Assembly: GCA_003499325.1 (NCBI GenBank)
Contig: DNIP01000105.1
Location: 1-14,521 of the forward strand
Length of the DNA stretch: 14,521 nt
Origin: Oscillospiraceae bacterium
GTDB lineage: Bacteria > Bacillota > Clostridia > Oscillospirales > Acutalibacteraceae
Direction of reading: 5' to 3'
Below, piece by piece: positions 620 through 2,689 of this stretch (the first letter of the stretch is position 1; each line of letters starts with the position of its first letter). Under the pieces are notes generated by a model. The model had not been told where the DNA came from and did no database searches. It saw nothing but the letters and a program-made list of their open reading frames with translations. The position numbers and the translations under genes are program-made.

Positions 620-2689
620 ATGAAGAAAATCACCATGAGAGTATTGGCCGTTCTGCTTTCCGTTTGCATGCTGTTTTGCGCGCTTTCTGTGAGCGCAACG
701 GCGGCAAATGTTGCGCTTGCTCCGACCGGGATGCAGATATTTGTCCGTACCCTGACCGGCAAGACAATCACGCTCGAGGTCGAGTCCAATGACACGATCG
801 AGAATATCAAGAGTAAAATACAGGAAAAAGAAGGAATCGCACCGGATCAGCAGAGGCTGATCTTTGCCGGTAAGCAGCTCGAGGACGGGCGCACCCTCGC
901 GGATTATAACATTCAAAAGGAATCTACCCTGCACCTTGTGCTGCGCCTCAGAGGCGAGGAAGAGGAACTTATCAGCTACAACCTTTGGGTCGGCGGCATA
1001 CAGGTCACCTCCGAGAACTGCAATGAAATTCCCTCCGTGATAAAGGGATCTGCTGTCTATGATCCCGAGACCGCCACACTGATGCTCGATAATGTCCAGG
1101 GCATTAACGGTGAGTATTACGGTGCTTTGATACACTCGCGCCTCGACAACCTCAACATCCTTTTGTCGGGAGAAAACTATTTGAATGCAGATTATGAGCA
1201 GAACGGAGAACAAATGCGCCAAAGCACAGCCATCAGCTCGTTCGGAAACATGGTCTTCTCTGCCGAATCTGACGGAAGCCTGACCTTAGACGGCTTTAAC
1301 GAGCCTGTATTCTCCTATAATAAAGCGATCACGATAAACAGCGGTCGTTACGACGCAAAAATACAAGGGGGCAGATTTGGCGAAACGATCAACACGTTTG
1401 CTTTCGAATGTGCGGAAATGACCGTAAACGGCGGAGAGATCACCATTGACGCCGACTATTTGCAAGACGATATGACGATGTACAGCAGCGGCGTCTATGC
1501 AGATCGCTTTACCATGTCCGGCGGTATGATAGCTGTGAATAACTATAAACAGGGAATCGTCGCTGAAGCTATCTCTGTCGCCGGCGGCAGGATCACCCTC
1601 AGCAACGGTAAAGACATAGGCTTGTACGCTACGGGTGATGAAGGTATCCGCATCAGCGGAACGAAAACATCGGTTGATGTAACTTGCGACAACATCGCCG
1701 TAGCTTCCTATGCAGGAGCGATCACCCTCTCTGACGACATGGAGATCGTTGCTCCGAAGGGCGGCTCTGTCGGAACACGGTACGGCAGACCTGCCATCGT
1801 CAACGAAGACGGCTCCGGCGCAACTGAGGTGAGGCTCGCATCGCCCTACTGTACCGTCACGATAGACTGCGGCGAGTATGGCGAGGATCTTTCCGTAGAT
1901 GTACTGCGCGGCGCAAGGTTCTTTGACGCGCTTGATAACGCAGGAGTATTTGAGACACTCGGCGCAATGGAGACCGAGGACTATATCTTCCGCGAACTTG
2001 CGACAAAGCCGCTGGATGAATTTGCCGACGCAGATGAATTAATTGAAGACACAGGCGCTCTGCTCGATACGATCGTTACATCCGATATGACCGTGTACTC
2101 CTGCTTCTACACCAAGATCAAGGAGCTCACCCTGACGCTCGCTCAGCCCATTATCGGAACAACCGTTACCATAACAGACGGTATTCAGTCTCCCGCTCCC
2201 GTATTGACTGTTGAAAAGGGCGCGCATTATTCGTTCTATACCGATCCCGAATTCCAGTATTCTAAATGGTACACCAAAATCAACGATGAATACACCGACT
2301 TTGAAGGGACTTTTGAGAAAGGCAGAACCTACTATGTTGAATGCCTGCTCAATCCCGATTTCGGCTACTGGATGGATGACGATACCGTCGTGACCGCGAA
2401 GGGTGCTGCGGTGGAGGAAGCCTTTGGGCGGATGTCGCTGGCTGTTTCGCTGTCCACTCAGGCTGTCCCTCCCGCCATTCTCGGCGACGCTGACGGCAAC
2501 GGTGTAGTGACGATTCTCGACGCCACTTTGATCCAGCGATATTTAGTCGATATAAAAGTACCGAACACCTTCAACGAAACTGCCGCCGACGCAGACGCAG
2601 ATGGCGTCGTCTCAATTATTGACGCAACATGGATTCAGCGTTGGCTCTCAGGAATTAATATCCCCTATTCGATCGGAAAAGTAATATGA
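620..2689 (+). CDS. Secreted ubiquitin / beta-helix / dockerin fusion protein
   Basis: This 689-residue exported protein has an unusual architecture. Residues 1-29 are a signal peptide (basic MKKITMR, hydrophobic core, SATAA at the cleavage site). Residues 38-113 are a ubiquitin domain matching human ubiquitin at 67 of 76 positions by hand count, with the Leu8/Ile44/Val70 patch and six of seven lysines kept, Lys6 changed to Arg, and Gly76 changed to Glu. Residues from about 119 to 405 begin YNLWVGGIQVTS and continue as short strands punctuated by GG, resembling parallel beta-helix, possibly carbohydrate-binding modules of clostridial surface proteins. Residues from about 411 to 500 resemble a Listeria-Bacteroides (InlB-type) repeat, and 505-612 form another beta-rich segment. 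Residues 622-682 are a type I dockerin. The gene stands alone between its own promoter and terminator. The domain calls at the two ends are firm; the function is unknown. Binding of ubiquitin-recognising host or protozoal proteins from a cohesin-anchored position is an inference. Confidence 0.95.
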   Translation: MKKITMRVLAVLLSVCMLFCALSVSATAANVALAPTGMQIFVRTLTGKTITLEVESNDTIENIKSKIQEKEGIAPDQQRLIFAGKQLEDGRTLADYNIQKESTLHLVLRLRGEEEELISYNLWVGGIQVTSENCNEIPSVIKGSAVYDPETATLMLDNVQGINGEYYGALIHSRLDNLNILLSGENYLNADYEQNGEQMRQSTAISSFGNMVFSAESDGSLTLDGFNEPVFSYNKAITINSGRYDAKIQGGRFGETINTFAFECAEMTVNGGEITIDADYLQDDMTMYSSGVYADRFTMSGGMIAVNNYKQGIVAEAISVAGGRITLSNGKDIGLYATGDEGIRISGTKTSVDVTCDNIAVASYAGAITLSDDMEIVAPKGGSVGTRYGRPAIVNEDGSGATEVRLASPYCTVTIDCGEYGEDLSVDVLRGARFFDALDNAGVFETLGAMETEDYIFRELATKPLDEFADADELIEDTGALLDTIVTSDMTVYSCFYTKIKELTLTLAQPIIGTTVTITDGIQSPAPVLTVEKGAHYSFYTDPEFQYSKWYTKINDEYTDFEGTFEKGRTYYVECLLNPDFGYWMDDDTVVTAKGAAVEEAFGRMSLAVSLSTQAVPPAILGDADGNGVVTILDATLIQRYLVDIKVPNTFNETAADADADGVVSIIDATWIQRWLSGINIPYSIGKVI
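731..958 (+). other. Ubiquitin domain (76 codons) within the fusion protein
   Basis: The domain starts with the ubiquitin Met at 731 and ends at codon 76 (956-958). Compared with human ubiquitin I count nine changes: K6R, P19S, S20N, V26I, A28S, D32E, P37A, S57A and G76E. Lysines 11, 27, 29, 33, 48 and 63 and the Leu8/Ile44/Val70 patch are present. Codon 76 is GAG (Glu) and is followed by more acidic residues, so there is no di-glycine end. The domain is flanked upstream by about eight linker residues after the signal peptide. Confidence 0.95.
2483..2665 (+). other. Type I dockerin domain, C-terminal
   Basis: Two F-hand calcium-binding repeats are present. The first has the loop DADGNGVVTILD followed by ATLIQRYL; the second has DADADGVVSIID followed by ATWIQRWL. 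Each has the Asp/Asn pattern of a dockerin calcium loop and the helix that contacts cohesin. Dockerins bind cohesin modules on scaffoldins or cell-surface proteins. No cohesin gene is in this window. Confidence 0.93.

Follow-up and report, generated by a model that had tools for sequence, protein, structure and literature searches.

A dockerin protein of an Oscillospiraceae bacterium carries a eukaryotic-like, probably non-conjugable ubiquitin as its candidate N-terminal ligand head

Ubiquitin is the textbook example of a tag restricted to eukaryotes. The well-studied bacterial exception known to us is BfUbb, a small secreted antibacterial protein, for which a 2024 report is said to name a peptidyl-prolyl isomerase as target. 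BfUbb (gene ubb) of Bacteroides fragilis is described as a stand-alone mature protein of 76 residues with 63% identity to human ubiquitin (PMC3352274; PMC5705921), which inhibits in vitro ubiquitination and for which a eukaryotic origin was proposed (PMC3352274). It inhibits B. fragilis strains and seems to need no immunity gene (PMC5705921). Here we analyze a gene of 689 codons on a 14,521-base stretch of DNA (the window), the complete contig DNIP01000105.1 of an Oscillospiraceae draft genome (1.56 Mb in 192 contigs, 66% complete, 0.79% contaminated). Since the window spans this contig in full and the genome is a partial draft, little genomic context is available beyond it. The gene product, predicted to be exported, shares with BfUbb the features of an exported eukaryotic-like ubiquitin from a gut bacterium that lacks the terminal glycine. 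In contrast to BfUbb, which belongs to the Bacteroidota, the window's ubiquitin has relatives in the Bacillota, is 88% identical to the human protein, is fused to a beta-helix and a dockerin, and lies behind a LytTR-type operator. It is not a stand-alone mature ubiquitin, since 576 residues follow the domain. Among the papers listed from the open-access literature, outside which most subscription papers lie, none described ubiquitin joined to a dockerin or anchored at a cell surface. We propose, with a probability of roughly 0.5, that this ubiquitin, predicted to be exported and likely non-conjugable, is the N-terminal ligand head of a LytTR-regulated, dockerin-fixed surface protein. The protein is encoded as follows:

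620..2689, + strand: whole gene, 689 residues, signal peptide-ubiquitin-beta-helix-C-terminal module-dockerin (reading frame, Pfam and 31-row alignment)
620..703, + strand: signal peptide, residues 1-28, MKK...SVSATAA (read by eye; hydrophobic stretch also found by a heuristic)
731..958, + strand: ubiquitin domain, residues 38-113, ending in RLRGE and not RLRGG (PF00240)
971..1849, + strand: predicted right-handed beta-helix, residues 118-410, Cthe_2159-like (structure model)
1850..2464, + strand: conserved C-terminal module, residues 411-615, also present in cassette proteins without ubiquitin (phmmer)
2480..2644, + strand: type I dockerin, residues 621-675 (PF00404, E 6.6e-11)

An initial annotation of this DNA had described a signal peptide, a ubiquitin domain, a beta-rich part and a type I dockerin in a single frame, and had counted only nine differences from human ubiquitin. 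Both statements hold: the reading frame is intact from end to end, PF00240 matches residues 40-111 (E 1.8e-30), and both sequence and beta-grasp fold identify the domain as ubiquitin. Compared over 76 positions with the human sequence, residues 38-113 carry the changes K6R, P19S, S20N, V26I, A28S, D32E, P37A, S57A and G76E. The initial annotation was also right to name the exported ubiquitin of B. fragilis as the precedent. An N-terminal signal peptide of the kind that BfUbb has is predicted from the sequence and by the heuristic; its cleavage may occur after ATA, and a nine-residue linker separates it from the ubiquitin.

Relatives were gathered in a scan of named genomes for related stretches, of which 80 of 176 were kept and numbered as loci (L...); these overlap with the genomes of the genus that we searched by profile (L016, for example, is a contig of genome G017). 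Whole-protein relatives, mostly from uncultured Ruminococcus or Clostridiales drafts, include L016 (94% identical), L017 (88%), L018 (76%), L020 (71%) and L026 (44%), among others. Thirty further homologues from protein databases, full-length or nearly so and 77-96% identical, were aligned with the window protein to give 31 rows. The initial annotation had proposed looking for the same architecture in independent assemblies and had raised the doubt that the fusion might be chimeric. L016 (a 32.8-kb contig) and L017 (87 kb) both carry it upstream of a ClpC-PgsA-CvpA-TruA-Ecf block, with the order kept through the Ecf genes; the ClpC-PgsA block also adjoins the gene in L024. Because the fusion recurs in the same gene order, it is no chimera, and the doubt is settled. 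An assembly artefact or eukaryotic contamination is exceedingly improbable: the draft genome is fragmented, and a few loci of the wide search look eukaryotic (L040, L088), but syntenic copies in other assemblies, PF00240 matches in other genomes of the genus and the Ruminococcus albus loci L059 and L080 refute it, and a bacterial signal peptide, a dockerin and an operator belong to the same gene. Two drafts, L024 (10001-12975) and L025 (1141-3726), have the coding sequence of the ubiquitin protein broken into two frames, by decay or sequencing error.

Counting the window's own genome and including some weak or partial matches, PF00240 was found at genus level in 12 of 60 genomes, at family level in 19 of 299 (completeness 80% or more), at order level in 4 of 297 and at phylum level in 5 of 299 (completeness 90% or more). 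The earlier statement that bacterial ubiquitin is very rare applies to the phylum but not to the genus. One family-member genome contains three tandem divergent ubiquitin-like open reading frames (ORFs) of ~110-124 residues (L153, G142:C22:30899-31909).

A conjugated modifier depends on a C-terminal Gly75-Gly76 for activation by E1. The window protein lacks this end; G75 is followed by E in all 31 aligned rows, and the chain runs on past position 76. Since Gly76 is replaced, the ubiquitin is likely unable to be conjugated. The E2 family PF00179 had no match in the window's own 66%-complete genome, in a search aimed at E2 alone; it matched in 4 of 60 genomes of the genus at E≤1e-3, and the one match above the cut-off is partial.

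The ubiquitin is under strong purifying selection, and its evolutionary rate is several times lower than that of the remaining protein. Compared with L016, L017, L018, L020 and L026, the ratio of nonsynonymous to synonymous substitution rates (dN/dS) was 0.045-0.089 for ubiquitin versus 0.245-0.368 for residues 118-686. It was lower for ubiquitin in all five pairs (bootstrap P(Ub≥rest) 0-0.016), which all contain the window sequence and are not independent; a separate comparison of six pairs gave the same direction. Among 30 sequences, including the window and omitting P0117 with its truncated start, 9 of 76 ubiquitin positions vary, as against 115 of 293 in the beta-helix, 108 of 205 in module 411-615 and 47 of 74 in the dockerin (39-64% in these three later parts). 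None of nine positions of the Ile44 face (8, 42, 44, 47, 48, 49, 68, 70 and 72) is among the variable ones. This face is the surface bound by most ubiquitin readers. With the face invariant and Gly76 replaced, the main reader-binding surface has been kept and the attachment end lost.

A wider comparison used 32 distinct bacterial ubiquitins found by the PF00240 profile only, with few residues of the Ile44 and Phe4 faces compared. The 12 members with at least 80% identity matched human ubiquitin at 0.94 of the Ile44 face, 0.97 of the Phe4 face and 0.76 of the other exposed residues; for the 18 members at 30-80% identity, these values were 0.55, 0.58 and 0.44. We infer that this conservation may reflect binding of a partner. 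Ubiquitin is exceptionally stable, and it might instead serve as a protease-resistant N-terminal cap or spacer with no specific ligand, in agreement with its fusion to many unrelated payloads across phyla and with the position of Met1, which directly follows a signal-peptidase-like site in 55 of the 82 ubiquitin frames read from the 80 loci plus the window (one being the window's own), a set biased by the search pattern. The surface of a mere scaffold should drift, however, whereas both faces show stronger conservation than the other exposed residues, and the domain changes at a far lower rate than the remaining protein. We therefore regard a purely structural role as rather unlikely.

The genomic neighborhood suggests that the gene is part of a regulated cassette, which the initial annotation missed together with the exchangeable N-terminal part and the recurrence across phyla and anchor types. 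A divergent gene lies beside the ubiquitin gene in eight of nine window-family loci with at least 500 upstream bases, not counting the window (L016-L020 and L023-L025, with the L023 copy cut by the contig end); the products are 85-100% identical to that of L016. At the ninth locus, L026, no regulator was found within 503 upstream bases, and the operator described below is present. The encoded protein contains a LytTR DNA-binding domain (PF04397, E 2.9e-15), and its N-terminal half matched no Pfam family. L054 and L056, which have other ubiquitin architectures, also carry it (66-67% identical). Among frames of at least 110 residues shared by at least four loci, no neighbor except the regulator accompanies the window-family gene where its surroundings differ; the remaining clusters were ABC transporters, the ClpC/PgsA block, present through shared synteny, and an exported ORF adjacent to other ubiquitin genes. 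The window itself has no intact LytTR gene next to the ubiquitin gene but only a remnant, followed by these features:

396..485, - strand: remnant of the LytTR regulator, 30 C-terminal codons (tblastn with the L016 regulator, 19/30, E 1e-08)
498..506, + strand: first operator-like repeat, CAAGCGTTT (most relatives read CAAGT; upstream alignment and pattern scan)
520..528, + strand: second operator-like repeat, CAAGTTATT, whose start lies 21 bases upstream of the -35 hexamer (upstream alignment and pattern scan)
541..570, + strand: promoter-like TTGACG-18-TACAAT (position kept in relatives)

The DNA flanking the remnant is 82% identical to L016 over 164 bases, and a rearrangement or deletion likely removed most of the window's regulator. 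A fragment of a short-chain dehydrogenase gene (3-308, - strand) adjoins the remnant where relatives hold the rest of the LytTR gene. The paired direct repeats upstream of the -35 hexamer are preserved, with a repeat-to-repeat spacing of 22 in the window and 21 in relatives. The motif CAAGY-21-CAAGY was present in 17 of 19 upstream regions examined (the window at 22), compared with 0-10 of 2000 shuffles per region, which do not correct for the fact that pattern and spacing were set after viewing the upstream alignment; the regions of L054, L056, L022, L026 and L193-L196 lie outside that alignment. The second repeat starts 21 bases before TTGAC in 13 of the 17 regions and 20 bases before it in L196, while L025, L054 and L056 are without an exact TTGAC. 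LytTR repeats are described as 9 bp long, parted by 12 bp and mostly located 10 bp before the -35 region (PMC6193735). The HdrR/BrsR systems of Streptococcus mutans share with the cassette the LytTR domain and a pair of direct repeats with an equal period shortly before -35, but in the cassette the regulator gene and a surface-protein gene diverge, and the repeats read CAAGT and not the reported consensus. Regulator and operator are consistent with control of the ubiquitin gene by the LytTR protein.

The regulator was found in 11 of 60 genomes of the genus (E≤1e-20), five times beside a window-family gene and six times elsewhere. At three of the latter loci, L193, L194 and L195, it is divergent from signal peptide-InlB-repeat-dockerin proteins preceded by the same operator, in which InlB-repeat and Ig-like modules replace ubiquitin and beta-helix. 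L194 and L193 share module 411-615 plus the dockerin with the window protein (phmmer E 2.9e-78 and 5.7e-61, respectively) but not the beta-helix, and L195 shares the dockerin only. L022, a contig of the same assembly as L023, has the regulator (90% identical), the operator and a protein whose BspA-LRR plus InlB head, in place of ubiquitin, sits on a window-type beta-helix and module 411-615; it is cut at the contig end inside the dockerin. Since the sister proteins carry adhesin-type modules at their N-terminus, ubiquitin sits in the place of these. In this large dockerin protein, ubiquitin has been maintained as the head domain under strong selection, within a regulatory cassette whose heads are exchangeable. 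At L192, in another genome of the genus, a gene for a dockerin-serpin protein (7136-8629, - strand; serpin E 1.6e-90) adjoins the LytTR regulator copy.

A type I dockerin is typical for cellulosomal proteins. The window's own genome yielded 35 dockerin matches, and cohesins were found in 58 of 60 genomes of the genus at E≤0.001, 55 of them above the cut-off. It is likely that the dockerin, as predicted from its sequence, fixes the protein to cell-anchored cohesins. The modeled beta-helix resembles Cthe_2159 of Clostridium thermocellum (PF14262; PDB 4peu and 4phb), a cellulose and pectin binder, which has no ubiquitin, unlike the window protein. Cthe_2159 ranked first when the model was aligned with VIA-align, at 13% identity; Foldseek returned no match for the model at E≤0.001, and the beta-helix had no match to PF14262 at E≤1. 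Based on the modeled fold, this part may bind plant fiber. Residues 445-689 are mostly of low confidence in both structure models.

In the proposed mechanism, a eukaryote was the likely first source of the ubiquitin, which then moved between bacteria and was installed as head on a regulated dockerin protein that already existed. The LytTR protein would switch the gene via the paired repeats, the signal peptide would export the product, the dockerin would hold it on the cohesins while the Cthe_2159-like beta-helix contacts fiber, and the head would bind a partner that recognizes the canonical ubiquitin surface. Most likely, such partners would be ubiquitin-binding proteins of co-living eukaryotes such as rumen protozoa and fungi; the main alternative is a bacterial target as for BfUbb. 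The mimicry or decoy binding raised in the initial annotation is a possible role, which the present data neither establish nor contradict. With a bacterial target, the displayed ubiquitin would act on neighboring bacteria, held at the cell surface or on fiber by dockerin and beta-helix. BfUbb, which likewise lacks the terminal glycine, inhibits B. fragilis strains (PMC5705921), and LytTR regulators control bacteriocin genes in S. mutans (PMC6193735). The apparent dispensability of an immunity gene for BfUbb would also fit a locus at which the regulator is, among the frames compared, the sole neighbor to travel with the gene. However, BfUbb is free and 76 residues long whereas this domain is part of an anchored 689-residue protein, BfUbb (8hm2) is only ~61% identical to it, and target and killing would be assumed by analogy. 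We consider an antibacterial function unlikely; together with the structural role, it takes up most of the probability that the ligand head leaves.

Several observations weigh against a regulated, cohesin-bound ligand head. Conservation of the ubiquitin could reflect constraints of fold or protease resistance, and since these faces are also conserved in eukaryotic ubiquitins, part of the signal could come from inheritance alone. Within the window's genome, the sole cohesin match scores under the Pfam cut-off (21.3 vs 24.1 bits); the matching protein has an LPXTG-like SPKTG tail (by eye) and its gene lies beside sortases. The regulator is lost from the window, and no match was found in the own genome at E≤1e-20 (66% of the genome being covered), so regulation there may be gone. 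Three of the six regulator copies away from ubiquitin genes do not follow the pattern of a divergent dockerin cassette: L192 has dockerin proteins nearby and no operator, L191 has no dockerin partner and 16 bases of spacer, and L196 has the operator and no dockerin partner. Finally, partner, expression and localization of the protein are predictions.

Exported ubiquitins are not confined to this family. Of the 82 frames, 74 have a signal-peptide-like stretch by the heuristic, which seems to have missed L064; leaving out the seven frames without such a stretch (L040, L067, two in L071, L075, L076 and L088) gives 75 members. They span Bacillota, Pseudomonadota, Verrucomicrobiota, Fibrobacterota, other phyla and one archaeal draft, and GG occupies positions 75-76 in seven of them. 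Counted singly, Pfam families among the 75 include Dockerin_1 (16), Autotransporter (9), SLH (4), IPTL-CTERM (3) and the type IX secretion system (T9SS) tail (2); by Pfam, L027, L028, L033, L048 and L103 encode minimal signal peptide-ubiquitin-dockerin proteins of ~170-200 residues. Because the signal peptide-ubiquitin design recurs in several phyla and with several kinds of anchor, it is a class and no longer an oddity, which raises the question of what outside the cell reads a bacterial ubiquitin. Records other than metagenome-assembled genomes with such loci include R. albus 8, R. albus KH2T6 (L080), Cocleimonas flava, Denitrificimonas caeni and Verrucomicrobia IMCC26134; as the two R. albus strains carry exported-ubiquitin genes, the question can be studied in laboratory strains. 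Tentatively, and with some doubt, surface-displayed, non-conjugable ubiquitin might be a general bacterial ligand module, derived from eukaryotes, spread over several phyla, attached to five or more anchors of unrelated kinds (dockerin, autotransporter, S-layer, IPTL-CTERM, T9SS tail), located in Ruminococcus relatives in the adhesin slot of a LytTR-switched cassette, and engaging ubiquitin-binding proteins of eukaryotic neighbors or predators.

Concerning its origin, the nearest eukaryotic ubiquitin to the window's is 92% identical and from plants (160 distinct sequences outside the window family among the 240 proteins listed). For the 75 exported ubiquitins, the nearest sequence among the matches listed was eukaryote-like in 23 cases and bacterial in 48, with four ties. 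In a quick tree of 72 of the 75 exported rows and 43 eukaryote-like rows over 75 columns, the window's ubiquitin falls into a set of 23 exclusively bacterial rows (20 Bacillota, one Verrucomicrobiota, one unplaced and the window), with a Shimodaira-Hasegawa-like approximate likelihood-ratio test (SH-aLRT) value of 95. Its position within this set suggests that the direct source was likely bacterial. The transfer from a eukaryote proposed in the initial annotation remains the natural reading for the origin of the domain, whereas the tree speaks against recent transfer into this genome. With 88 of 112 forks open and 8 label changes needed versus 35 in shuffles, one or several transfers are both possible. 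Two candidate lines were dropped: naming a eukaryotic donor, for which the plant match is not decisive, and Ala at position 57 as a mark of the donor, since ADYNIQKE, one of the search patterns, selects for it and inflates positions 57-64. The conservation figures for the two faces were therefore drawn from PF00240-found loci only. The G+C content of the ubiquitin part (0.52) is close to that of the window (0.51).

Two further features flank the coding region:

606..612, + strand: ribosome-binding site AAGGAGG, separated from the ATG by 7 bases (sequence)
2695..2724, + strand: rho-independent terminator-like hairpin of 12 pairs with a T-rich tail (hairpin scan)

The initial annotation had assigned the gene its own promoter, ribosome-binding site and terminator. 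The second of these stands, with AGGAGG present in 9 of 9 aligned upstream regions. The promoter pair alone is no evidence, because it is the only such pair found and shuffles average 3.6, but its position is supported by relatives: of 8 upstream regions aligned, 7 have TTGACG at this position and the eighth has TTGATG, followed by TACAAT or TAAAAT. The hairpin is one of 7 terminator-like hits on both strands of the scanned region, compared with 2.6 in shuffles. Directly downstream and convergent (2868-3444, - strand) lie a ParE-type toxin gene (PF05016, E 1.3e-14) and a Phd/YefM-like antitoxin gene (below the cut-off); L016 and L017 gave no match to the pair, which is not conserved.

At other loci, L040 (3167-3580) and L088 (676-1272) encode ubiquitin without a signal peptide, joined to cytochrome c and to nickel superoxide dismutase, respectively (both by eye), and are likely eukaryotic contamination of those drafts. 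A Methanothrix (archaeal) draft contains a signal peptide-ubiquitin-SdrD/SpaA-repeat protein of 1491 residues (L046, 806-5278), by binning error or transfer. A related ORF with a hydrophobic N-terminus lies within ~35 bases upstream of the ubiquitin fusions in L044 (8065-8487), L061 (9548-9967) and L086 (5119-5739); in L064 (7332-7943) and L080 (6646-7194), one or two further exported-looking ORFs lie in between. This ORF is a possible operon partner of the five fusions. Tandem pairs of exported-ubiquitin genes are found in L037 (7057-8171) and L081 (10001-11780), the latter in the complete genome record of Verrucomicrobia IMCC26134 and with near-identical signal peptides.

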